Below, piece after piece: positions 10,709 through 22,044 of a stretch of 22,530 nucleotides of DNA. A program made the translations under genes and the position numbers. The notes below the pieces were generated by a model. That model did no database searches. It was not told the DNA's origin and saw only the letters and a program-made list of their open reading frames with translations. Within the stretch, counting starts at the first letter, position 1, and the number at the start of each line of letters is the position of its first letter. The stretch comes from a bacterium. GTDB lineage: Bacteria; SM23-81; DAOVCL01. Location of the stretch: positions 1-22,530 of the forward strand of contig JAOZPP010000050.1 in assembly GCA_029932675.1 (NCBI GenBank). Reading direction: 5' to 3'.

Positions 10709-11063
10709 CAGATACTCCTTTTTTGAGGTTGAATGTTACTCCCCTCATCTCCCTATCGAAGCGACTAATTTGTTGTTGTTCAAAAATAAAAAGTGGGGGT
10801 TGCCAAGAGATCTTTTCCTTCCGTTTACCAGGCCTCTGTTTAGTTGCATACAATACTTTTTGCCAAAGTATTGTAAATTGTTTAGGCCTAAGGCCAAAGC
10901 CATTGGGGAACTTCTCACAGCTTTTAGGAAACTTAACCCCCTCTCTTTCCGGGAGTGGTGGAAGAGGAAAAACGAGACTAATGTTTTCTTTCAGTATTTA
11001 CAAGTGAAAAGACCTCCATTGACATAGTTTTTTGCCAAGTTAGACGATGTTCTAACCATCATC
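10709..11063. other. Intergenic stretch (355 bp), no gene; contains a hairpin and an imperfect direct repeat
   Basis: No convincing ORF was found. An 11-bp stem (10849-10859 with 10865-10875, loop TTGCC) could end the minus-strand isomerase-like transcript, though no T run follows. A roughly 20-bp segment at 10850-10869 recurs imperfectly at 11022-11041 (shared core TTTTTGCCAA). The ribosome site of the propeller gene (AAGGAG, minus strand) lies near 10714-10720. Attachment-like heptamers ACTTAAC (10931-10937) and GTTAGAC (11039-11045) are present, with no pairing arms between them. This stretch probably contains the junction between the cassette array and the older chromosome. Confidence 0.45.
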
Positions 11064-12353
11064 TCACACCTCAATTGTAAAAACCCCAAAGAGCTTATTT
11101 AGCTCCTTTATCTTCTTCCTATAATCGCCATACACCATAAGATGATGGCATCCTGACGTTTTATGAATAAATTCCCTTGCATTGTCAACTCTAATCTTCA
11201 CAATTTCTCGGCAATCACCAGGGACATCCTTCTTCTGCCCTGTAATTATTCCTGTCGTGCAGAACATAGTCTTCAAATCTCCACTAAGACGGCAGATGGT
11301 TACCTTTTGGCCGATCTTCATCTCTACATATGCTGTTAGACTTCCCATGAACTTCTCTCCATGGTAGTCTCTCAATATATAAGGAACCGATGTTGTCTCA
11401 TACCCTGCCATCTTTCTGGGGCTTACACAGTGGCCGATGATAAGAGTAGTGTCATCCTCAGACTCAGCCTCTATTCCTCCCATAAAAGCAGGTCTATCAG
11501 CAAGATAATGCAATATTACCATTAGCAGAAGCGAAAGGATATCCGCTTCACATCCAGCGGGAATGGCTTCATCTCTCAAGTTGGTATATGCAAAACAGGG
11601 AACTGGTAATGGATCATTCCCATACGCCATTGTCATCGCCTGTGCTTGTTTCTCCTTCAGTAAATCCTTTATTAGAAGGTATAGTCTTGCTACGGCTATA
11701 ACATCCTCCTCTTTTGGTTCTATTATTTTCTCAGCATGCTTTATCCATTCCTCCGCTATAGATTTTACCTTCTCCTCTTTCATGTCTTTCCATCTTTTCA
11801 CCACCTCATCGCTTTTCACATATTCAATCTCAATCCCAAATCTGTCTTTGATAGCCTCAACACCACCAGAGATGCGGAGTGGCCATTTCTCCCAGTGTGG
11901 ATAATCGGCATTCAAGACAAGTATTTTGGTATTCTCTATCCTTTTCTTTACCTTGAGAAGTTCAAGCCGTAAATTCATATCTGGATAATCAATAGCAACC
12001 CAGACATCCTTTTTATCCCACATATATTCCAATGCGTCCATTGCACCATTGATTTTATACGCTTCCTTAAAAAGAATAATGGGGGTGTTGTATTCAGCAA
12101 TTTTGATTACGCACTTCCCCAGACCAAGATATGGTTTGTAGAGAAGAAGAACATCTGCCTCTTTCGTCGCTCCCTCCAATAAAGTAAGATCTGATTCCTT
12201 GTTAATAATAACACCTTCAAGGATTTGAACTTCAACCGAAAGATTTTCCTGCAGTTCCTTAATCCTTCCCCTGAATTCCTCCATACTCATTATACCTTTT
12301 CTACAGACCAAAACTGGAAGTATATTAAATGTCTTGGTGTGAAATTTCTTCAC
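11064..12353 (-). CDS. L-fucose/L-arabinose isomerase-like fold protein
   Basis: Member of the L-fucose isomerase (FucI/AraA)-like superfamily, probably a cytoplasmic sugar isomerase or relative; substrate unknown. At 429 residues it is shorter than FucI (about 590) and near the size of the family's compact uncharacterised members. An N-terminal Rossmann-like part (about 8-150) is followed by a central segment. The C-terminal half carries IPAGCEADILSLLL (264-277, acidic Glu269/Asp271), IIGHCVSP (305-312) and CHHLMVYGD (402-410). The Glu/Asp and His residues lie where this superfamily binds its metal. The start is GTG at 12353, chosen because AGGAGGT lies 8 bp upstream. The gene begins 28 bp after the attC-like site at 12382-12478, as a cassette gene would, but no clear attC follows its stop. 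It may be a last, decayed cassette or a flanking gene. Confidence 0.72.
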   Translation of the reverse strand: MKKFHTKTFNILPVLVCRKGIMSMEEFRGRIKELQENLSVEVQILEGVIINKESDLTLLEGATKEADVLLLYKPYLGLGKCVIKIAEYNTPIILFKEAYKINGAMDALEYMWDKKDVWVAIDYPDMNLRLELLKVKKRIENTKILVLNADYPHWEKWPLRISGGVEAIKDRFGIEIEYVKSDEVVKRWKDMKEEKVKSIAEEWIKHAEKIIEPKEEDVIAVARLYLLIKDLLKEKQAQAMTMAYGNDPLPVPCFAYTNLRDEAIPAGCEADILSLLLMVILHYLADRPAFMGGIEAESEDDTTLIIGHCVSPRKMAGYETTSVPYILRDYHGEKFMGSLTAYVEMKIGQKVTICRLSGDLKTMFCTTGIITGQKKDVPGDCREIVKIRVDNAREFIHKTSGCHHLMVYGDYRKKIKELNKLFGVFTIEV

Positions 12354-12381: not shown

Positions 12382-12478
12382 GCCTAACGGCCTAGGAGGA
12401 TAATACGACGTTGCGACCGTAGGGAGCAATGTCCCGAAGGGCAAGGTGTTAGCCCGTAGTATATATGCTGTGTTATAC
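12382..12478 (-). other. attC-like recombination site A (end of the restriction-modification cassette)
   Basis: Read on the minus strand the site opens with GTATAAC (degenerate R'') and ends with GTTAGGC (a perfect GTTRRRY R' box). Inside, 12400-12410 pairs with 12455-12466: ten base pairs, one mismatch and one extra unpaired base (12463). An extrahelical base in one arm is a known attC feature. The site lies 43 bp after the stop of res and 28 bp before the start of the isomerase-like gene. A second possible R'' (GTTAGCC on the plus strand, 12448-12454) lies inside. Called from box and stem pattern only. Confidence 0.65.
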
Positions 12479-12521
12479 GCTGTGCCGTGCCTTTTTTAGG
12501 GGTTATGAACTTTCTCATAGT

Positions 12522-15500
12522 TTATAGTGAACTATTTCCCAAGATACTCTTAAACAATACCCCCGGCCAATTTTCATCTGGCAAGAATAGCACATGATGG
12601 CTTATATATTCGTCTTTGGGGGGAGGATTTGTTCTCCCCTTTATTAATTTATCGTATGGAGTCTGGGAAAGGATAAAAGATTCTAAAGCTACATCCTTTC
12701 TTCCAAGCTTCTGTTCCACCCGCTTAATATCCTCTTTAAGTTTTATCTTTTCGTCATCCAATCCCTTCGTGTGCTCTAACCCTTTTGGGTCAATAAAAAC
12801 AATGGTCTGCCTCTTAGCTTTTTTTATCCACATAATAAAGTCAGGGTAAAAGCCTGCCCATTGAAGTTGAAAGCCCACCCCCACCTTCGGATGATTCCTT
12901 AGAAGATATACCTCAAATGGTAATTCATCTTTTTTCCTCTTTAAAAATTCCTTTAGACTACGGACAAAATCCTTTTCACTTTCTACCAGCCCAGAAGGTG
13001 TGATTTTATTTATCTTCTTACCTTGGAGTAATATTGGCACATAAAGGGACTTATCAAAATAGATGCGTGGCAAAACTTCCGTGTCTTCTTTAAGTAATTT
13101 ATCCAAATCTTGTGTCAGCTTTCTTATCTCTTCAATAAGTGTCTTTTCACTCTTGGCAATTTGAACTGTGTAAGTGTATTTATTTTCTGGTTTTTCAAAA
13201 ACAAAAAGAGTTAGCTGTTTTGTAACCTTATCATATCGCAGGTTTTCAGTCTCAAAGCGCCTCGCATACCTTCTATAAAATAAATCCAAATATTTTTTAA
13301 TAACCAAAAGTGCTATATTCTCTACTCTTCGGATATCATTCTCGCTTTTGACCTCAAAAATCTCAGGAAGCCCCATAATTTTATATCTATCTGATAGAAG
13401 CAGGTTTTTTAGCACCTCTGTATCTAAAACCAAATTCCAGTAACCCTTCATAATTTTGAAATCAAAAATTTCCTGCACAATCCAGTTCCAATCAAACAAA
13501 TTTACAGTATCTTCGGTGAATTTCAATTCACAGGCTTCTGCTCTTATCTGGTCTATTTTAACCCCCCTTTCTCTTTCCTTTGCCAGATATACTGATACCT
13601 TTGGTATAAGGTCTATTGTGAAATAGAGTTTGTCATCGAGTTCCAACCTCAAAATTTCCTCCTCTGAAAACTCCCTCTTCTCGTCTTTTGAAAGGGTATA
13701 AAGAGCCTCCCACCTTTCCTCATGCTGTGGCTTTACGGGTATTTCAATGGTCTCAAACTCCGCTCCTTCCTTCTGGATTGCCTCTAAGAATCTGCTTAAA
13801 TAGTCTGCCTTGATTCCATAGATGTTGAGCATCTCCAGAGGTCGGACAGGGGTATTCTCCTCGCTTCTCTTCAAAGACATACCACGCCCTTTCAGCCTTA
13901 CTCCTCTTCCAAACAACTGAATTATCTGCGGTCCCTGCCCTCTGCCAATGTTAAGAAGTCCCATTGAAGATACCCGCCAGGTATCCCAGCCCTCGATGAA
14001 CTTCTTTGAACCGATAAGGAGATTAACACAAGATGCTTCTCTTTTAATATCATTAAAAAGAGAACCTGAAATGGCATCCTGACTTACAGATATTCCCTTT
14101 TTCTCCAATTGCTTCTTAAAACCAGAAGTATCACCGATACTTATAACTCCAAAATATTCATTCTCCCCTATCTTTAATCCCAACTCACCTCCTGCATTTT
14201 TTATCTCATAGATGCCAAGGCTTCCTCTTCCACCAAAAACCCTTGTGTATAAGTCATCAAAATCGGTGCCCTTACGATTAAGATACTCAAATTTACCGGT
14301 AAAAACATCTTTATCATCTTCATCCCGTAGATTTGTTCTTCCTTCCAGGATTTTCTTTATCCATTCTTTTAACCAATCATCATCTTGAATTACCCTTTTT
14401 ATGAAATCTACAATCTGAATAACATCAGATTCTTCCTCTTTGCCAGTAACCGTAGTTCCGACAAAAATCCAGAGCGGTTTCTCAAGGTTATATTCCTTAG
14501 CGAGCCTACTATTTTCTTCATATATGAGAAGTTGCTCATAAAAGGATAGGAGATTGGCTACAAACATTGACTCCTGAAACTCCTTTTCACCAACTTTCAC
14601 CTGCTTCACATTCAGGACTGAGAAGTCCTTGCCATATCCATCAAGATAGAAGTATTTATAGGAATAATCAAAAAGGATTGATTTGGCATATTCGGAGAGT
14701 ATCTCTTTATCCTTCTCGCTCAAAATCTGCCCAAAAGTAGCGCTGTATTCAAAGACAAAGCCTCCTTCAGCAAGCCTATTTCTGAGTTTTGCCCATTTCT
14801 GCTCCTCTGACCTTTTCCCCTTATGCCCTTCATCTACAAAAACAAGATTTCTCCCCTCAAACACATCAACCGGTAAGGTAACTCCCCCACCCTTTTTCTC
14901 CTCCACAAATTTTGTCATTTCTATCACTAAAATCTCGCGCTCAGACCTTCCAAATCCGCTTAAACCACCTGCATAAAGCCTTGCTGGTATGTCACTTTTC
15001 TGGAGCTCATCAAAATGCTGTTTTGAAAGCCCTTCATTGGGAGTAATCAGGATGATGTTATCAGGAGAAAATAAACTGTAATAGAAGAATTGATGGTAGT
15101 TTATGTGCATAATCAAAGTTTTTCCCGAACCCGTTGCCATCCAGAACGCAAGCTTCTTCAGATCATCTTCAGCAAATGAATCTAATTTAATCCCTTGTTC
15201 CTTGGAATATTCTTTTAAAAATTCATTCAGTTCATCCAGAAATTCAATCTTTCTATTTTTCAGGTTATCCAGAACAATTTCGGCAAAAAGCACAGCCAAA
15301 TACTGGAAATACTTAAGGGTTATATTGCGTCTGTAGTTTATTTTTCTTGTGTAGGATTGAATGTTCTCATCATATCTAAGGAGAGTATCTTCTGGAATCT
15401 GGAGATTTTCAAAAGCTGAACGCAGAACATTTACAAAATAAGTTCTCCCATCGCTATCTGTTCCTGTGGGTGAGTCTTTCATCTTCTCCTGCAAATCTCT

Positions 15501-15566
15501 GAAGTCATCAACTCCGAAAAGTGAAAGTAGGCATTTGTTCAGGACAAGATATTTCTCTATTTTCAT
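12522..15566 (-). CDS. res: Type III-like restriction enzyme subunit Res (DEAD helicase plus PD-(D/E)xK nuclease)
   Basis: Restriction subunit that would act with the Mod-like protein of the same operon: ATP-driven translocation on DNA and cleavage when sites are unmethylated. The SF2 helicase core spans about 130-570: Walker A ATGSGKT (144-150), motif II DEGH (245-248), motif III SAT (275-277) and motif VI QLFGRGVRLKG (550-560). The C-terminal nuclease has FEVYLL (884-889), YPDF (907-910) and FIDPKG (924-929), a PD...DxK active site with Asp909, Asp926 and Lys928. Its 1014 residues are normal for Res. The start overlaps the upstream DUF4411 stop as ATGA (15563-15566), so translation is coupled. 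No frameshift or missing motif was seen, so it looks functional. Confidence 0.93.
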   Translation of the reverse strand: MKIEKYLVLNKCLLSLFGVDDFRDLQEKMKDSPTGTDSDGRTYFVNVLRSAFENLQIPEDTLLRYDENIQSYTRKINYRRNITLKYFQYLAVLFAEIVLDNLKNRKIEFLDELNEFLKEYSKEQGIKLDSFAEDDLKKLAFWMATGSGKTLIMHINYHQFFYYSLFSPDNIILITPNEGLSKQHFDELQKSDIPARLYAGGLSGFGRSEREILVIEMTKFVEEKKGGGVTLPVDVFEGRNLVFVDEGHKGKRSEEQKWAKLRNRLAEGGFVFEYSATFGQILSEKDKEILSEYAKSILFDYSYKYFYLDGYGKDFSVLNVKQVKVGEKEFQESMFVANLLSFYEQLLIYEENSRLAKEYNLEKPLWIFVGTTVTGKEEESDVIQIVDFIKRVIQDDDWLKEWIKKILEGRTNLRDEDDKDVFTGKFEYLNRKGTDFDDLYTRVFGGRGSLGIYEIKNAGGELGLKIGENEYFGVISIGDTSGFKKQLEKKGISVSQDAISGSLFNDIKREASCVNLLIGSKKFIEGWDTWRVSSMGLLNIGRGQGPQIIQLFGRGVRLKGRGMSLKRSEENTPVRPLEMLNIYGIKADYLSRFLEAIQKEGAEFETIEIPVKPQHEERWEALYTLSKDEKREFSEEEILRLELDDKLYFTIDLIPKVSVYLAKERERGVKIDQIRAEACELKFTEDTVNLFDWNWIVQEIFDFKIMKGYWNLVLDTEVLKNLLLSDRYKIMGLPEIFEVKSENDIRRVENIALLVIKKYLDLFYRRYARRFETENLRYDKVTKQLTLFVFEKPENKYTYTVQIAKSEKTLIEEIRKLTQDLDKLLKEDTEVLPRIYFDKSLYVPILLQGKKINKITPSGLVESEKDFVRSLKEFLKRKKDELPFEVYLLRNHPKVGVGFQLQWAGFYPDFIMWIKKAKRQTIVFIDPKGLEHTKGLDDEKIKLKEDIKRVEQKLGRKDVALESFILSQTPYDKLIKGRTNPPPKDEYISHHVLFLPDENWPGVLFKSILGNSSL

Positions 15567-16078
15567 AGTTTATCCTCTTTATGAATTCTGAACTTCCAGC
15601 CTAATCTTCTAAAAAATTCTAATAAGTTAATGCATTCTATATTGTAATTTCTACACACAGTTGGAATTTTCTGGGGGTTTATTCTAGATTCCTCAGTTAC
15701 TACAACATGTTTAATATCTGAGAAAAGTTTTTCTTGTTCCTCTTCATTTCTCACAATAGCAAGTGCTATTAGCCATGGATCCGCATTAGAAGCAGCTACT
15801 TCTCCTGATTTAGCTAAAAAAGGATAATCCCTTAATATCTCTTTCACCTTTTTAATCTGTCTCATATCTGGTCTTACAAATAGCTTCTTTTTCCCTTTTA
15901 TCCATCTTTTTAGCTCATCATCCCCTCGCTCAATCTCTCTTTTCACCTCAATTGGTGCTATTAATCTTCTGTCTTTGATAAGACTCTCCATCTTGGGTAA
16001 TAAATCTACAAAGACATCTATTGGATATCTATCCTTCATTTCAATTAAAGAACTTGTATCTATACAATATACATCCAT
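15563..16078 (-). CDS. DUF4411 family PIN-like protein, probable toxin
   Basis: PIN-like putative ribonuclease of the DUF4411 family, known as a frequent partner of XRE/ImmA-IrrE proteins and predicted to be a toxin. The 171 residues open with VYCIDTSSLIEMK, where Asp7 matches the first PIN acidic residue. Further acidic positions are in APIEVKREIE (Glu44, Glu48), SNADPWLIALA (Asp100) and VVVTEES (Glu129/Glu130), which gives the usual PIN set. It lies 9 bp after the ImmA/IrrE-like gene and overlaps the res start by 4 bp. It is therefore embedded in the restriction operon. RNase activity is inferred, not shown. It could instead be a regulatory or abortive-infection arm of the R-M system. Confidence 0.85.
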   Translation of the reverse strand: MDVYCIDTSSLIEMKDRYPIDVFVDLLPKMESLIKDRRLIAPIEVKREIERGDDELKRWIKGKKKLFVRPDMRQIKKVKEILRDYPFLAKSGEVAASNADPWLIALAIVRNEEEQEKLFSDIKHVVVTEESRINPQKIPTVCRNYNIECINLLEFFRRLGWKFRIHKEDKL

Positions 16079-16087
16079 TATCCCACA

Positions 16088-17239
16088 TTATCTAACAGCT
16101 AATTCTTCAACTTTATTTAAATGTTTGAGTTTCACCGATAGATATTCAATAGTATCTGCAGTAGTAATAAGTTTCCTTTCCTTACCTTGAAAAATAAGAG
16201 AAACGAATTGTCTACCTCTTTCTTGGATACATTTGCGTGGTGGAGTAATAAATCCCTTACTTTTTGGAAGGCGAAATTCTTCTTTGAGTCTTCTAACTTC
16301 ACTTTCATACTCAGATTGACTGATTAGGTTTAAACTTCTTATTCTGGTTAGTATGGCATGCTTGCTTACTCTATATTTCTTTGACCATCTTTCAAGCATC
16401 TCATAAGAAACTCTCTTAGATCTCAAAAAATTCTGAAAATCTATATCTTCTCTTAATACAGTCTCAGGGACAAGAAATTCAGAAGCAAAACGATTACACC
16501 AATTCTCCACATCTAAATTATTTAGGTTTATTTCCTCCTCTCCTGCATAGATTTCAGGTAGTCTCAAAATAATGTGGGCATACTCATGGAAGAGAGTAAA
16601 AATTCTGGCAAGGATGTTATCATCTGAATTTAATGCTATTACCGGTGGTTCTTTATCCATAAGAGAAAAACCTCTTGCAGATTTAAGAGGAAACTTGTAT
16701 TGAAAAACCAAAATATTTTGTCCTTCAATAGCATTTCTCCATTTATTAAAAGCGTAATAAGCATTTCTCCATCCAAGCTGCTTATCTATGGAAATGCCAA
16801 GTCTTTCTCTTTCTTTTCTGGCAACTATTATTGGGTTTTGATTGATGGATTCAAAGGAAGTCTTGGGTTTGGTGTCAATGCCTAAATTCCTCATCAATTC
16901 ATTGGCAATAGATTGATAATACCTCGTTTTTCTTATGGCAAGACGCAGTTCCTTGGATAAATATTCTTCACTTTTTGGTAGAATGCGAAATGAAGCAGTT
17001 ATAGATGGTTCTTCAGGTGGTTCTGGTAGAAAGAAAACAGCTAAAGGACGTTTAAATAAATTGGCAAGGATTTCAATCTGTCTGTAAGTTGGATTTTTCC
17101 TCCCACTTTCTATCTTCTCATAATTTTCTTTGCTCGTTTTAAGCTTCCTTGCTATCTCATCACTCTTAAATCCAGCACTTTCCCTTGCCCATTTTATAAT
17201 TGCAGAATTGATGTTTACCTCTAATGATTTTCCTGCCAT
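16088..17239 (-). CDS. XRE-family HTH / ImmA-IrrE metallopeptidase fusion protein, probable antitoxin/regulator
   Basis: Two-domain protein. Residues 10-70 are an XRE-type helix-turn-helix (WARESAGFKSDEIARKLK, then YEKIESGRKNPT). About 150-300 is an ImmA/IrrE (COG2856) zinc peptidase with HEYAH at 218-222 and a likely third ligand in the helix VENWCNRFASEFLVP (about 244-258). In known systems such proteins repress their operon and are released by peptidase action, and in TA modules they act as antitoxin to the next gene. Here the next gene, 9 bp on, is the DUF4411 PIN-like protein. The ATG lies 1 bp after the mod stop, with GGAGAG upstream inside the mod end. The extended C-terminus (about 300-383) has no recognised domain. 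It probably controls expression of the whole mod-res operon. Confidence 0.9.
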   Translation of the reverse strand: MAGKSLEVNINSAIIKWARESAGFKSDEIARKLKTSKENYEKIESGRKNPTYRQIEILANLFKRPLAVFFLPEPPEEPSITASFRILPKSEEYLSKELRLAIRKTRYYQSIANELMRNLGIDTKPKTSFESINQNPIIVARKERERLGISIDKQLGWRNAYYAFNKWRNAIEGQNILVFQYKFPLKSARGFSLMDKEPPVIALNSDDNILARIFTLFHEYAHIILRLPEIYAGEEEINLNNLDVENWCNRFASEFLVPETVLREDIDFQNFLRSKRVSYEMLERWSKKYRVSKHAILTRIRSLNLISQSEYESEVRRLKEEFRLPKSKGFITPPRKCIQERGRQFVSLIFQGKERKLITTADTIEYLSVKLKHLNKVEELAVR

Positions 17240-17240
17240 A

Positions 17241-20222
17241 TTATCTCTCCATCAGCCTTTTAAATTCTGGTTCAATATAACGAATTTCTACTATATGATC
17301 TCCAAGTTTTGGGGTAAGAACACTCTGCCCATTTACATAGACAATATGTGGTGCCCAAGGTGCAAGTTCTTTGATAATAAATTCTTTATCCTTCTTAAAA
17401 TCCTCTTCATCCCACCTATCAGAATATTCACGCCAGACAACTGCAATATCTTTCCCCTCTTTTTCACCGAAGATGAATAAATATTGCCTTCCATTGTTTG
17501 CCTGTGCGTGTCCGCCCGCAGATAGGTTTCTTGTCTTGATTTTCTTAACTTTCAATCCCAGAAGATAATTAAATGTCTCAGGAATATCCACTACCACTTC
17601 CTGAGGCTCGCCAACTTCTTCAAGATTAACTTTTAGTTTGTAAGAGAGAGGACTTTTAAGCTGTTCTACGTTTAATAAACATGGATTTTCTCGTGTTTCA
17701 TAATCTAAGAAATATTTAAGAAGATATTCATCTTTAAACAAGCTCTGTGCAACCTCATTTGGATTGAGTTCAATATTGTCTAAAGTGTCTTCGTATTGTT
17801 CTAAGATTTGGTATTTGAAGAAGCCACCTGCGGACTTAGGATTGTATTTGTCTTTTACATCCTTTTCCTTTGATATACCGCTTTTATCATAGGCGAGTAC
17901 ATTTTTCATTCTCGGTAAAACTACACTCCAAAAATGTTCACCCATCTCAACACCAATCCATTTCCTTTTGAGTTTATGAGCTACTGCTGTGGTTGTACCA
18001 GAACCAAGGAAGAAGTCTAAAACAAGGTTGCCTTCGTTAGATGTAGACTGTATAACACGCTTCAGGAGAATTTCGGAGTTTTCAGTGGAGAAATTCCAGT
18101 TAAAAGAATAACCATAAAATCCAGTCCAATCATCTGTTAGATAAATATTTGAAGGTTTTATCATTTGAGGATTCCCCGTCTTGCTAAACCTTATCTTTCC
18201 TTCCCTTTCTAATTGAGTAATTATTTCTTGTGGTGGAAAACGTCTGCCTTTTCGTGGTAAGACTTCCTTACCTAATATTATTCTTGCCCTTGAGATGGGA
18301 TCCTCATCTTCATCATATTTTATATTTTCGGGTGAGAAAAGTTTGACCATCTCTTTAGGAATAATATCCCATTTCTCACCCTCCATATCAATAGACCGCC
18401 ATTCTTCTTTTTCCCTTTCTTCGGTAATATGATGGAAATAAACAATTTCAAAATTCTTTGAGTACCAGAAGATAGAATCATGCCAAGATGGAAACTTTTT
18501 TCCTTCTGTTTTCATCCTAACGGATTTATTAATTATAATCTCATTCTTAAAGTTATCCTCACCAAAAATTTCATTCATCAGCATTCTTACAAACATATTT
18601 CCGTTATAATCGCAACGGACAAAAATACTCCCTTTGTCACTTATTAAATCTCTTGCCAGTTGCAATCTGTTTTCCAGAATGCTTATCCAAGTGGAATCCT
18701 TATAATTCACATTATAAAGAAAATCTGCATTTGCTCCAAGATTAAACGGAGGATCAATATAAATACTCTGGACTTTTTCTTTATACTTTCCAAGAAGCAA
18801 ATTCAACGCCTGATAGTTTTCACTTTTTATAAGTAAGCCATCTAAAAGGTCATCTAAAACTGTTTTTTCGCTGAGTTTCTCAAGCAGTCTTTCCTTGAAC
18901 TCCTGGGTAAAGTATCTAGTATCAATCGGCAGTTTTTTATTTTTCAAATCTCCTTTTGTTTTTGGTATATCAAATCCTAAGTTTTGCCATTCTTCTTTCT
19001 GCTCCTTGTTGTTCCAAATCTCCCGATGAAACTCTTCCGGCACACGGTCAGTGGTTATTACATACTCTGTTTTTAGCACAAATTTCTTTTTCTCCCATAA
19101 CTTTTTTTGGAAATCCTCAATCTGTGATAGAAAATCAATTATATCCTCTCCAATCTCACGCACCACTTTGGCTCTTGTTATATGTTTGTCCAGAAATCGC
19201 TCCTTCTCTAGTGTCTCAATATCTAAAACTTCAGTTTTGATGAAGTAATCCAGTTGCTCAGATAGGAATTTTTTGAGGCTTTTGTGGATGAAATAGTCCT
19301 TTGTGTTTTTGGCAGTGAACCTTGAAATCTGATAGAAAAGCAGTGTTTTCTCGTTCTTATACTCTTTACTCAAAACTGCTTTCATCTCAATGCCATCAAC
19401 CTTATTTAGTATCTCATCACAGGTTTTCTGATTTATCTTCTCCTGCTTTGCGGTATTGCTACCTCCTTCCACACCATACCCTTTTACCTCTTCTTCTGTA
19501 AGCTCCCGATACTGGAAGCGGATGATTAAGTTTTTGCTCTCGGTGGATAGTGGATTTTCGTCATCAAGAATAAAGAACCTCTGTTTTGTAGCTTTTTTTG
19601 AACCTACTTCTTCTTTTGCCTGAACAATACGGAAGATAATTTTGTAGCCATCCGCTTTAAAGGTATAATCACGGAAAAGCAGACCTGTCTTTATATAATA
19701 CTGGTCTGAATTTGCCCAGTAGAGTTTTACCTCCTCACCATTGTAAGGGATGGCATACTTGTAACCTTTGATTGAATACCGATATTGGGGGACAAAATCC
19801 CCTTCTTCATAAAAGCGAGAGAAGAAACTATAGAGGTCGTTGAACACTTGAAGCTTGATTTCATCGATGGTTTCTGCTTCATCCTTCTGTGCTTTTAAGG
19901 ATAAATATTTTCTCCCCAATTCTGAATCTTTAAATTCGTCCTTCAGATCACCTGCTGAAGTTAAAGGTTCTTTCCCCAGTTTTTTTGCCGTTTCCAGAAG
20001 CTCTTTTTTTACGCCTTCAAATCTCTGATTGATGTTGGTTAGCCCTTCATTCTTATGTTTAGCAAAAGCAGATTCAATCCTCTCTACAAGGTCTTTCTGA
20101 ATAAACTTCTCAATTTGGTCCCGTTTATAGTTCAGAATCCGGTAGATTCCAAAATCCAAATCCGACGTTTCAAACTGAAACAGCTTTTTAAGTAAATCCT
20201 GAAATTTTTGAATAGTACCCAT
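17241..20222 (-). CDS. mod: Type III-like DNA methyltransferase subunit Mod (N6-adenine class) with long N-terminal extension
   Basis: Modification subunit of the restriction system. Numbering here counts from an upstream in-frame GTG at 20231 (996 residues). Motif IV DPPF is at 493-496 and the SAM motif DFFLGSGTT at 739-747. IV before I is the beta-class order of type III Mod proteins. The predicted product is N6-methyladenine; the target site is unknown. Mod proteins are usually 550-700 residues, whereas this one has about 490 residues before motif IV (helical, YRILNYKRDQI style). That may be a target-recognition or Res-contact region. I prefer ATG 20222 (993 residues) because AAAGGGG lies about 8-14 bp upstream. 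It is the first gene of the operon, starting about 40 bp after attC site B. A GC-rich patch encoding SAGGHAQAN (905-912) looks like a small insertion. Confidence 0.92.
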   Translation of the reverse strand: MGTIQKFQDLLKKLFQFETSDLDFGIYRILNYKRDQIEKFIQKDLVERIESAFAKHKNEGLTNINQRFEGVKKELLETAKKLGKEPLTSAGDLKDEFKDSELGRKYLSLKAQKDEAETIDEIKLQVFNDLYSFFSRFYEEGDFVPQYRYSIKGYKYAIPYNGEEVKLYWANSDQYYIKTGLLFRDYTFKADGYKIIFRIVQAKEEVGSKKATKQRFFILDDENPLSTESKNLIIRFQYRELTEEEVKGYGVEGGSNTAKQEKINQKTCDEILNKVDGIEMKAVLSKEYKNEKTLLFYQISRFTAKNTKDYFIHKSLKKFLSEQLDYFIKTEVLDIETLEKERFLDKHITRAKVVREIGEDIIDFLSQIEDFQKKLWEKKKFVLKTEYVITTDRVPEEFHREIWNNKEQKEEWQNLGFDIPKTKGDLKNKKLPIDTRYFTQEFKERLLEKLSEKTVLDDLLDGLLIKSENYQALNLLLGKYKEKVQSIYIDPPFNLGANADFLYNVNYKDSTWISILENRLQLARDLISDKGSIFVRCDYNGNMFVRMLMNEIFGEDNFKNEIIINKSVRMKTEGKKFPSWHDSIFWYSKNFEIVYFHHITEEREKEEWRSIDMEGEKWDIIPKEMVKLFSPENIKYDEDEDPISRARIILGKEVLPRKGRRFPPQEIITQLEREGKIRFSKTGNPQMIKPSNIYLTDDWTGFYGYSFNWNFSTENSEILLKRVIQSTSNEGNLVLDFFLGSGTTTAVAHKLKRKWIGVEMGEHFWSVVLPRMKNVLAYDKSGISKEKDVKDKYNPKSAGGFFKYQILEQYEDTLDNIELNPNEVAQSLFKDEYLLKYFLDYETRENPCLLNVEQLKSPLSYKLKVNLEEVGEPQEVVVDIPETFNYLLGLKVKKIKTRNLSAGGHAQANNGRQYLFIFGEKEGKDIAVVWREYSDRWDEEDFKKDKEFIIKELAPWAPHIVYVNGQSVLTPKLGDHIVEIRYIEPEFKRLMER

Positions 20223-20263
20223 AATTACCACCCCTTTAATTTATTTTTCAGGCACGCCATTTC

Positions 20264-20351
20264 ACTTAACGTTTTGAGCGTATCTGAAGTCCGGCTTTGC
20301 TGGATTTAGGCAAAGTGCCGAAGGCACGAAGCCAGATACACTCTGTTAGCC
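20264..20351 (-). other. attC-like recombination site B (between zincin and R-M cassettes)
   Basis: On the minus strand the site runs from GGCTAAC to GTTAAGT; the latter fits the R' consensus GTTRRRY. The arms GAGCGTATCTG (20276-20286) and CAGATACACTC (20333-20343) pair over ten of eleven positions, with one C-A mismatch. A small GTGCC-GAA-GGCAC hairpin lies inside the loop. The site starts 5 bp after the zincin stop. Its 20327-20349 half is 22/23 identical to 22020-22042 in site D. Confidence 0.75.
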
Positions 20352-20356
20352 GAAGT

Positions 20357-21214
20357 TTATTCTTCACCATTTAACATCTCATAAAATAACTTTTCTATCT
20401 CTACCAACAATTTCGGTTCTTGCATACTCAAAAATTCAATATATTTTGATCCTCCCTCATAAAACGTTACTCTGCTGAAAGGCTTTTCTATGCCATAATG
20501 ATTTTCATTGAGACCAAGCCTGCGTCTAATCTGATTTTCAATGAAGCGTGCAAACCCTTCTTTCCATTCCTGCCAGACCATATATTCAAAATCATCTTTA
20601 TTTAAAATTTGCTTCAATTGGCTTCGGTATTTGAAAACATCGTCAGAGTTATTTCCTTCCAAAGCTTTCAAGAACAGAGAATAGGTTTTAGTGAATTCGC
20701 TGTTATTATATGGGAAAGAATAATTTATCTCCCACATATAATCTTTTTTAGCCATTGCCTTCTGAGCTACACCCAATTTTTGTTTGAGTTCTGGCTCACA
20801 GGTTTCCAATTGCTGACAATGCATGAATTCGTGAAAAATCATAACGTAACCCTCAAGAGAGTCAAAAATTTCACCGGAGATCACACAAGCTACTTTATTT
20901 TTGTAACATTCAAGTGGAAAAGCGGCCTTAACACCTTTGGGGACTGGCATTGGAGTAGGTGCTTTTTTAATAAAAACATAACTCTTTCCAGAAGAATCAG
21001 TGTCAAATACTAAGAAGCTATCATTTTCTGCAATAGCAGTTGGAAATACTCTTTCCAGAAAAGGATGAATATCCTTGATCTCATTTTGGACTTCAAATAT
21101 TTTTTGTAAATCGCTAATATATTTCAATTGCACTTCCTCCAGCCTTGCAGTGTGACAAGTAGCTATTTGGCTTAAAATAGTTACCATTAAGAAAGAAATC
21201 GAGATCGTTTTCAT
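20357..21214 (-). CDS. Secreted putative zinc metalloprotease (HExxH) cassette protein
   Basis: I do not recognise a named family. Residues 1-22 form a signal peptide (hydrophobic FLMVTILSQIATC); the Cys at 20 could also be a lipobox, but the match is weak. The protein carries a zincin motif, HEFMH at 128-132. A second conserved-looking acidic helix, EWKEGFARFIE (216-226), could supply the third zinc ligand (Glu219 is the best candidate) in the manner of gluzincins. It is therefore probably an exported zinc peptidase of 285 residues. It is a single-gene cassette: it starts 28 bp after site C and stops 5 bp before site B. Its AT-rich base use matches the neighbouring cassettes and not the left block. 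Activity and substrate are inferred or unknown. Confidence 0.75.
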   Translation of the reverse strand: MKTISISFLMVTILSQIATCHTARLEEVQLKYISDLQKIFEVQNEIKDIHPFLERVFPTAIAENDSFLVFDTDSSGKSYVFIKKAPTPMPVPKGVKAAFPLECYKNKVACVISGEIFDSLEGYVMIFHEFMHCQQLETCEPELKQKLGVAQKAMAKKDYMWEINYSFPYNNSEFTKTYSLFLKALEGNNSDDVFKYRSQLKQILNKDDFEYMVWQEWKEGFARFIENQIRRRLGLNENHYGIEKPFSRVTFYEGGSKYIEFLSMQEPKLLVEIEKLFYEMLNGEE

Positions 21215-21242: not shown

Positions 21243-21314
21243 GCCTAACGGCAAGCGTGTTTGCGAAGTTGCCTTTAGGCAATTTAGCGAAGCGTCGCAA
21301 ACATGCTGTTAGGC
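21243..21314 (-). other. attC recombination site C (between GNAT and zincin cassettes)
   Basis: This is the clearest site. GCCTAAC at 21243-21249 and GTTAGGC at 21308-21314 are perfect complementary R boxes. Arms 21254-21266 and 21295-21307 pair over 13 positions with one G-T pair. Four unpaired bases (21250-21253) on one side give the usual asymmetry. A TTGCC-TTTA-GGCAA mini-hairpin forms the variable terminal structure. The 72 bp lie well within the known attC range, 28 bp after the GNAT stop and 28 bp before the zincin start. Confidence 0.85.
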
Positions 21315-21342: not shown

Positions 21343-21900
21343 CTACGATTCCAGCTTTCTCTTCATGAAAATTGCCACTTCCCCTTCCGTCATATCTCTA
21401 TTGGAGTAGTAGGAAAGGTCAATCCCTTCAATCTCGAAACCAACCTTGCGATAGAATTCGATTGCAGGCACATTATAATTTTGAGTCTCGCAAACGATGA
21501 CTCGCATACCAGCCTCTTTAGCTTTATCAGCCAGGGCCTCCATAAGTTGTTTTCCTATGCCCCTCCTCCTATGCGTCTCGGCAACACAGAATTCCCAGAC
21601 CCACAGGCTACGATTCCAACTCTCCTGCTCCGCAATAACGATACCAACCAGCCGGTCACCATCGTATGCTCCCAGAGATAACCCCTGCTGAACAACTTGT
21701 TCATACCGATCCAACAACGTGCCATCGAGATCATCATGTTTTACATAAGGCTTATCTAAGGCAGTGAGTTTGAGGGTGATGACTGTACGTTCGTGCGTTT
21801 CGGTCTTTTTGACGACATATTTGGCCGTTGAAATATAGTTTCTTGAAAGTTGTCTCAAGTCATTAGCATTGAAGTTCTTCAGCGTCCTAATTTTAATCAT
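21343..21900 (-). CDS. GNAT acetyltransferase, streptothricin acetyltransferase (Sat)-like
   Basis: Cytoplasmic acetyl-CoA-dependent N-acetyltransferase. Numbering from an upstream ATG at 21915: motif A HRRRGIGKQL (115-124) is the acetyl-CoA loop. The segment CETQNYNVPAIEFYRKVGF followed by EGIDLSYYS (142-172) closely follows the pattern of Sat-type streptothricin acetyltransferases (ETQ-N-NVPA, Y-K-GF, GIDL-Y). The N-terminal half is longer and less familiar. I prefer the ATG at 21900 (185 residues, MIKIRTLK) because GGAGAGG ends 6 bp upstream; ATGs at 21915 and 21906 also exist. It is a single-gene cassette between sites D and C. sat genes are classic cargo of clinical integrons, so the match of gene and setting is notable. 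Real substrate unknown; GNAT call firm, Sat subfamily probable. Confidence 0.85.
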   Translation of the reverse strand: MIKIRTLKNFNANDLRQLSRNYISTAKYVVKKTETHERTVITLKLTALDKPYVKHDDLDGTLLDRYEQVVQQGLSLGAYDGDRLVGIVIAEQESWNRSLWVWEFCVAETHRRRGIGKQLMEALADKAKEAGMRVIVCETQNYNVPAIEFYRKVGFEIEGIDLSYYSNRDMTEGEVAIFMKRKLES

Positions 21901-21926
21901 AGCCATCCTCTCCATTTAACCATTGC

Positions 21927-22044
21927 GTCTAACGTGGCGGCGGGTAAGCGAAGTTTCGCTTGAGGGAAAGCTTGCTTTCACTCAAGCGGACTGGGTAAGT
22001 GGATTTGGACAGAGCGTAGCGAAGCCAGATACGCTCTGTTAGGC
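21927..22044 (-). other. attC-like site D, probably chimeric (between GIY-YIG and GNAT cassettes)
   Basis: On the minus strand it runs from GCCTAAC to GTTAGAC, both good R boxes, 12 bp after the stop of the GIY-YIG gene. The two arms next to the boxes are not complementary. Instead there is a local 10-bp hairpin ACAGAGCGTA/TACGCTCTGT (22009-22018 with 22030-22039) that overlaps one R box. A second long hairpin lies in the middle: CGCTTGAG...CTCAAGCG, about 21957-21987, with GAAAGC-TT-GCTTTC inside. One half matches site B, which suggests a hybrid of two attC types. Confidence 0.6.

Follow-up and report, generated by a model that had tools for sequence, protein, structure and literature searches.

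A complete type III restriction-modification operon probably carried as a single 7.9 kb integron cassette

Anti-phage genes, including those of restriction-modification (R-M) systems, are known as gene cassettes of integrons from the work of Darracq et al. (2025) and Kieffer et al. (2025), as described in PMC12409362. In that account the type II and type IV restriction genes of integrons are reduced in length, and no system with three or more genes, such as CRISPR-Cas or BREX, is present (Darracq et al. 2025, via PMC12409362); according to the same source the defence systems of integrons are streamlined to one or two genes, cassettes having to be small. Surveys of attC clusters have required gaps of under 4 kb between attC sites (PMC9668308). 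Type I and type III R-M loci contain built-in toxin-like genes that have been repeatedly replaced (Makarova et al. 2012, PMC3506569), and XRE-COG2856 proteins pair with PIN toxins (Makarova et al. 2009, PMC2701414). Here we describe a four-gene type III R-M operon lying in an attC array, which on sequence evidence we read, with a probability of about 0.72, as one integron cassette of ~7.9 kb that was captured whole.

The window, i.e. the whole stretch of DNA analysed, is a complete contig (C31) of 22530 bp from the 3.03 Mb metagenome-assembled genome of an uncultured bacterium, which comprises 116 contigs and is 97% complete. Reading from right to left, the minus-strand genes are GIY-YIG, GNAT, a 285-aa protein, mod, XRE-ImmA, DUF4411, res and a 429-aa protein (Table 1), and beyond the last of these lie chromosomal-looking genes. 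The GC content is 36% in the R-M unit, 40% in the attC array and 51% in the left-hand chromosome; it stays low up to about 10.9 kb, where it rises. The right end of the contig falls within the array, on the integrase-proximal side. This is a contig of a metagenome-assembled genome that ends in an array, and it may contain a mis-join. The 285-aa cassette protein (20357-21214) has no match in Pfam or PADLOC; with its signal-like start and HEFMH motif it is possibly a secreted zinc peptidase.

Table 1. Features of the attC array and of the R-M unit within the window, from right to left.
Feature	Position	Strand	Basis or remark
attC S0, end of GIY-YIG cassette	21927..22044	-	44.7 bits, R3 trained without S0
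GNAT acetyltransferase cassette gene	21343..21915	-	Pfam Acetyltransf_1; cassette ends match 16/21
attC S1	21243..21314	-	45.9 bits, R3 trained without S1
285-aa cassette gene, family unknown, HExxH-like motif HEFMH	20357..21214	-	ORF
attC site A	20264..20351	-	66.2 bits, R3 trained without site A
Unit read as one cassette, 7882 bp	12388..20269	-	end match 14/21; internal attC none
mod, type III DNA methyltransferase, 993 aa	17241..20222	-	PF01555 E 1e-37; PADLOC MTase_III E 4e-157
XRE-ImmA/IrrE protein, HTH and HEYAH zinc peptidase	16088..17239	-	PF06114, HTH_3, HTH_19; PADLOC RmrA-like
DUF4411 PIN-like nuclease, probable toxin	15563..16078	-	PF14367 E 3e-34
res, type III helicase-nuclease, 1014 aa	12522..15566	-	PF04851; PADLOC REase_III E 5e-145
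R-M unit 3' end, reverse complement matches 5' start 20270-20244	12472..12498		9/10 outer matches in register
attC site B, degenerate: R'' GTATAAC 12478-12472, R' GTTAGGC 12388-12382	12382..12478	-	arms and end matching
429-aa gene, weak AraA_central	11064..12353	-	start 28 nt past site B R'; GC 40%
R''-like remnant GTCTAAC at 429-aa gene end	11039..11045	-	11/14 match to that cassette's start

The plan of the attC sites became visible on comparing palindromes of the window contig with those of a second array, in contig C83. In the first half an R'' core ending in AAC is followed by one A, an 11-nt stem arm and a variable loop that ends in ACTTC; the second half comprises the second stem arm, five nucleotides ending in C, and an R' core that starts with GTT. 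The stem spacers of this class are thus 1 and 5 nt. A first attC finder, based upon near-symmetric spacers and perfect cores, found only S1 in the window and was abandoned, the real spacers being those just given. A covariance model of five sites (R1) identified more sites in the host, in a genus-mate and in another family of the phylum, and with the rebuilt models (R2 and R3) the class is present in 13 of 98 genomes from many lineages, including 18 sites in the genome G057. R3 was trained on 50 sites, none of which comes from the window. In these 50 sites the stems are paired in 85.7% of cells, compared with 69.5% in shuffles, and there are 164 double-change cells against 61. The covariation score is 0.458 against 0.189 in shuffles; fitting the alignment to the structure favours such a score, and controls in which the alignment was slid gave 0.11 or less. 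The attC class is real, and both of its stems covary.

Some members of the class depart from the plan. Sites with R' cores GATAGGC or GATGGGC in place of a GTT core are found at three loci (L020 4539-5238, L056 9448-10429 and L057 5891-5959), and are possibly inactive; several are then followed by a common sequence resembling AAATGTCGCTGGCTACGCCACG. Another attC-like array leaves the right end of contig C93 (L021 17337-18600), with RelE-like, MazF-like and nucleotidyltransferase genes nearby.

With the window sites left out of its training, R3 scores S0, S1 and site A at between 44.7 and 66.2 bits, showing that all three are real members of the class. The upstream boundary of the R-M unit is therefore an authentic attC, that of site A, whose R' box has the sequence GTTAAGT (20270-20264). 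When the full R3 model was run over 12479-20263 with filters off there was no credible attC inside the R-M operon. A plus-strand candidate at 16090-16143 was dismissed, since at 10 to 13 bits it is at background level and it has the wrong orientation. An earlier note on this DNA had placed the crossover points of the unit at two R' boxes, with no other attC between them. Both statements hold: the ends at 20270 and 12388 are the G of each R' box, delimiting 7882 bp, and sites A and B have no credible match between them.

The left boundary is less clear. Site B fits into the gap between res and the 429-aa gene, yet its covariance score is 10.8 bits with R3 (E about 1) and 11.6 bits with R2, which is background level. 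From structure alone the site is indistinguishable from background and would not be called. Moreover, the 7-nt R boxes at the two ends of the R-M unit agree at only four of seven positions. These observations favour the most serious alternative, in which the array stops at site A, the R-M genes are its neighbours by accident as a normal chromosomal or island operon, and the resemblance of site B to an attC is due to chance. Against this, the arms of site B are complementary. Their score is 8, where those of site A, S1 and S0 are 9, 11 and 5, respectively, and a score of 8 was reached by none of 57 random R''/R' pairs taken from 140 kb of the host genome. The R' of site B also has the extended core of the array, GTTAGGCGAA. 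The genome has 13 copies of this string, 10 of them on contigs C31, C59, C83 and C93, where attC-like sites were found; this carries little weight by itself because the reversed control is almost equally frequent, with 10 occurrences.

A further line of evidence comes from the ends of the cassettes. The integrase cuts at G^TT of R' during cassette integration, and the start of a cassette and its own 3' end are consequently joined in the free circle. We developed a test in which the first ~20 nt of a cassette are compared with the last ~20 nt of the same cassette in reverse complement. In this attC class the likeness of the two ends goes past the 7-nt core, as seen for a cassette of C83 where the start is GTTATACGCCATATTACT and the reverse-complemented end is GTTATACGCCGTATTACT. 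Across six genomes, 29 pairs of neighbouring sites have a mean end match of 11.4/21 compared with 9.05 for mismatched pairs, a value as high being found in 0 of 100 000 permutations (p < 1e-5). The host's own seven cassettes give a permutation p of 0.0012. The test offers a simple, sequence-only way to recognize true single cassettes.

Applied to the R-M unit, the end match is 14/21, ranking first of 29 both in its row and in its column, which speaks against an array that stops at site A. A match of 14/21 to the start of the unit is reached by only 12 of 7480 GTT sites in host sequence, and among the five GTT positions within 150 nt past the res stop the R'' of site B alone matches the unit start (14/21; the others 6 to 9). 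The aligned ends can be written as AGGCACGGCA-CAGC-GTATAAC against GTTAAGT-GAAA-TGGCGTGCCT, and their nine of ten outer matches in register are equalled at four of the 7480 GTT sites. The individual probability of the match is 0.0016 to 0.03 depending on the null, which is modest. Taken with the GTT controls, the match indicates that the two ends of the R-M unit appear to come from one molecule. This is good but not conclusive evidence that they once belonged to the same circular molecule, the test being statistical rather than physical. For the R-M unit the gain on folding of the joined ends was only modest (-14.5 to -18.9 kcal/mol), and we have given it no weight.

The region beyond site B points in the same direction. 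The 429-aa gene, which has weak similarity to arabinose isomerase, has cassette-like ends, and the GC content stays low until about 10.9 kb, both of which speak against an array that ends at site A. An 11/14 match as good as that of the GTCTAAC element (11039-11045) to the start of this cassette is reached by 20 of the 7480 GTT sites. This element is probably the truncated last attC of the array and the 429-aa gene probably its last cassette, although both assignments are post hoc and less certain than the R-M end match. Weighing all of this, we regard an array that stops at site A as unlikely, while it is clearly the best of the alternatives.

What does the unit contain? As judged from its sequence it encodes a type III R-M system. 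Mod has motifs IV and I in beta order, with DPPF at residue 490 and FLGSGT at 738, and Res has both its helicase and its nuclease motifs intact (GSGKT, DEGH, SAT, QLFGRG, and PDF with DPK forming the PD-(D/E)xK site). Between them lie an adjacent XRE-ImmA and PIN pair that matches toxin-antitoxin gene families (PF06114 plus HTH, and PF14367); the DUF4411 PIN protein has retained acidic residues where they are expected. The operon mod / XRE-ImmA / DUF4411 / res proposed in the earlier note is thus confirmed, with intact ORFs, Pfam and PADLOC domains and catalytic motifs. The four ORFs are tightly packed and overlap or abut (mod/ImmA at 17241/17239 and PIN/res at 15563/15566), so that they are probably co-translated. 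Outside the genes only some 41 nt lie ahead of mod and some 43 nt behind res. The matched ends extend up to about 25 nt from the mod start and from the res stop, leaving no room for further cassette content. The unit is about seven times longer than its neighbouring cassettes; among the other 28 cassettes measured in the class the median is 1.06 kb and the longest has 4.3 kb.

So long a unit might have arisen by fusion of two or more cassettes once an attC between them, such as one separating mod from XRE-ImmA or PIN from res, had been lost, in which case it never moved as one. In general, long cassettes could plausibly form through such a loss. However, the overlapping or abutting genes leave no space for a remnant, nearly all relatives that have both mod and res on the contig have them side by side in an operon, and the outer ends match each other; fusion is accordingly very improbable. 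Least probable of all is the later insertion of the operon into a smaller A-B cassette by another mobile element or by homologous recombination, which would suit the wide travel of mod-res by other routes, with relatives in many phyla, but is opposed by matching ends so close to the mod start and res stop that nothing is left over and by the failure to identify a transposase gene in the unit from ORFs and Pfam.

Do the relatives of the operon travel in this manner? A scan of one genome per species gave 257 relatives of Res, and the loci of the best 80 were retained for analysis. Relatives of mod-res are widespread, occurring in many phyla, and in the best 80 of 257 loci mod, where present on the contig, nearly always adjoins res. 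An attC of this class was found beside mod-res in none of the best 80 of 257 loci, from which it follows that cassettes are not the usual vehicle of the operon family. Two relative loci examined in detail lie between unrelated chromosomal genes. That relatives are chromosomal and have no attC of the class is a point in favour of the array stopping at site A, and the earlier note had itself named related strains with the operon in one fixed place and without attC sites as evidence against carriage as a cassette; on this check, across many phyla and the best 80 loci, the family proves not to be cassette-borne as a rule. The R-M operon appears to have been captured as a cassette only once.

The slot between mod and res is variable. 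In the relatives it contains MNT-HEPN, AbiEi/AbiEii, DarT-macro, Fic, YhcG or AIG2-like genes, or else it is empty; toxin-like modules were seen in it in L061, L065, L067, L068, L070, L071, L087, L092, L094, L096 and L137. Such variability fits the swapping of toxins in R-M loci (PMC3506569) and the pairing of XRE-COG2856 with PIN proteins (PMC2701414). In a Thermocrinis genome (L091 5176-6890) an ImmA/DUF4411 pair lies directly upstream of a homologous mod-res, outside the slot.

Searches for the operon on mobile elements and for the site before capture gave little. It was not found in viral contigs, and plasmids yielded only relatives of the operon below 60% identity. Neither an empty site nor a second copy of the R-M unit was found. 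The genus-mate is without a close mod and without the 429-aa gene, and the chromosomal neighbour tested has no orthologue there, only a weak match (39% over 129 aa).

In the host assembly, which is 97% complete, there is no match to IntI over the TIGR02249 cut-off, and on this contig, which stops on the side where intI would lie, the array has no intI gene beside it, unlike that of a complete integron. Of the host candidates below the cut-off, those that were examined appear Xer-like and do not have the IntI insertion. At a contig edge of the genus-mate (L150 3-326, in G001 C1) lies an IntI C-terminal fragment that scores 208.8 bits over model positions 180-315 and resembles a typical IntI C-terminus. 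The genome G090, which has the attC class, contains two full IntI genes over the cut-off, on contigs other than those in which sites were read. A tyrosine recombinase beside an attC array in that genome (G090 C55) was not counted as IntI, as it appears to be without the IntI insertion.

How general are R-M genes in cassettes of this class? Other lineages have multi-gene R-M cassettes with this attC class, 2 to 4.3 kb in length. In G057 C19 (L160 11134-15381) a 4.3 kb interval between two attC sites contains six genes, among them one for a BglII-type endonuclease and two for DNA methyltransferases. Next to it in the array (L160 7584-19726) are a UvrD-like helicase with a second gene (3.4 kb) and a DUF4062-TPR protein with a second gene (4.1 kb), together with a bSEFIR protein, so that the array is rich in likely defence genes. 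G004 C29 (L165 6343-11470) has two consecutive multi-gene intervals, one of 2.8 kb and one of 2.1 kb; both contain a DNA methyltransferase together with unknown neighbours that are possibly restriction enzymes. The end match is weak for the 4.3 kb interval of G057 (10/21) and good for the 2.8 kb interval of G004 (14/21). With the 7.9 kb type III R-M unit and its toxin-antitoxin pair, the 4.3 kb BglII-like unit and the methyltransferase units of 2 to 2.8 kb as examples, it can be proposed that a distinct attC class with spacers of 1 and 5 nt mobilizes whole multi-gene defence operons as single large cassettes in several uncultured lineages; we see the chances for and against this wider proposal as evenly balanced.

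Returning to the reading of the R-M operon as one cassette, we count in its favour the three strong flanking sites, the covarying stems, the end match and an operon that fills the unit, together with the GC pattern, the cassette-like ends of the 429-aa gene, the R-M cassettes elsewhere and the IntI fragment of the genus. Against it we count site B at background level, R boxes agreeing at 4/7, host IntI candidates below the cut-off, the failure to find an empty site or second copy, homologous operons that are without attC of the class, and a possible mis-join in the assembled contig. The proposal of the earlier note that a defence system is carried as a single cassette therefore stands in part: the unit runs from an attC of the class to a putative second one, its ends match and it has no internal site, but the left attC is degenerate and no IntI of the host assembly passes the cut-off.

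We envisage that the cassette would comprise mod, XRE-ImmA, PIN (DUF4411) and res, followed by its own attC, now diverged as site B, and that it was captured into a chromosomal attC array. An integron integrase would recombine the folded bottom strand of the attC of the free circle with an array site at G^TT, so that the integrated cassette would start with TTAAGT after site A and end in its own attC. Mod would methylate the DNA of the host, and Res together with Mod would cut unmodified incoming DNA. The XRE-ImmA/PIN pair is probably a toxin-antitoxin-like back-up or retention module, which may be triggered when the R-M enzyme is lost or inhibited. We infer excision and integration of the unit, expression and anti-phage activity of the operon, and a toxin role for DUF4411.

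If this reading is true it has several consequences. A four-gene R-M cassette of 7.9 kb would mean that the limit on cassette size is not strict. Mod, res and the toxin pair would move as one unit, so that protection and antidote arrive together; their joint arrival is a known difficulty in R-M transfer. Array definitions with a 4 kb gap would hide cassettes of this size. If the wider proposal on the attC class holds too, integrons would spread complete R-M systems that are missed by surveys splitting arrays at 4 kb.

The locus can be compared with several described systems. Like the integron defence cassettes reported in the sources cited above, which lie between attC sites in chromosomal or mobile integrons, it has predicted anti-phage genes in an attC array, but it differs from them in having four genes, with full-length mod (993 aa) and res (1014 aa), in 7.9 kb. 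The earlier note's view that the arrangement is undescribed is too strong, for R-M and other defence genes in integrons are known in kind; what is new is the size, the gene number and the combination with a toxin-like insert, and the unit is larger than the defence cassettes so far described in those sources. Like a CALIN, i.e. an attC cluster without an integrase, the array has consecutive attC sites in the same orientation and no IntI on the contig. Here, however, the contig also ends inside the array, and with the survey gap limit of < 4 kb (PMC9668308) a cassette of 7.9 kb falls outside the CALIN definition and would be split off. As in type III R-M systems of the EcoP15I type, Mod has beta-order DPPF and FLGSGT motifs and Res has helicase motifs and PD-DPK, whereas the XRE-ImmA/PIN genes between mod and res and the setting in an attC array are not part of those systems. 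R-M operons with built-in toxins likewise have toxin-like genes inside, and the present operon differs in the identity of the insert, XRE-ImmA/DUF4411, and in its probable carriage as a cassette. Finally, like the XRE-COG2856/PIN systems this is an operon of a fused XRE-ImmA protein and a PIN-type nuclease, but here the pair sits inside a type III R-M operon.
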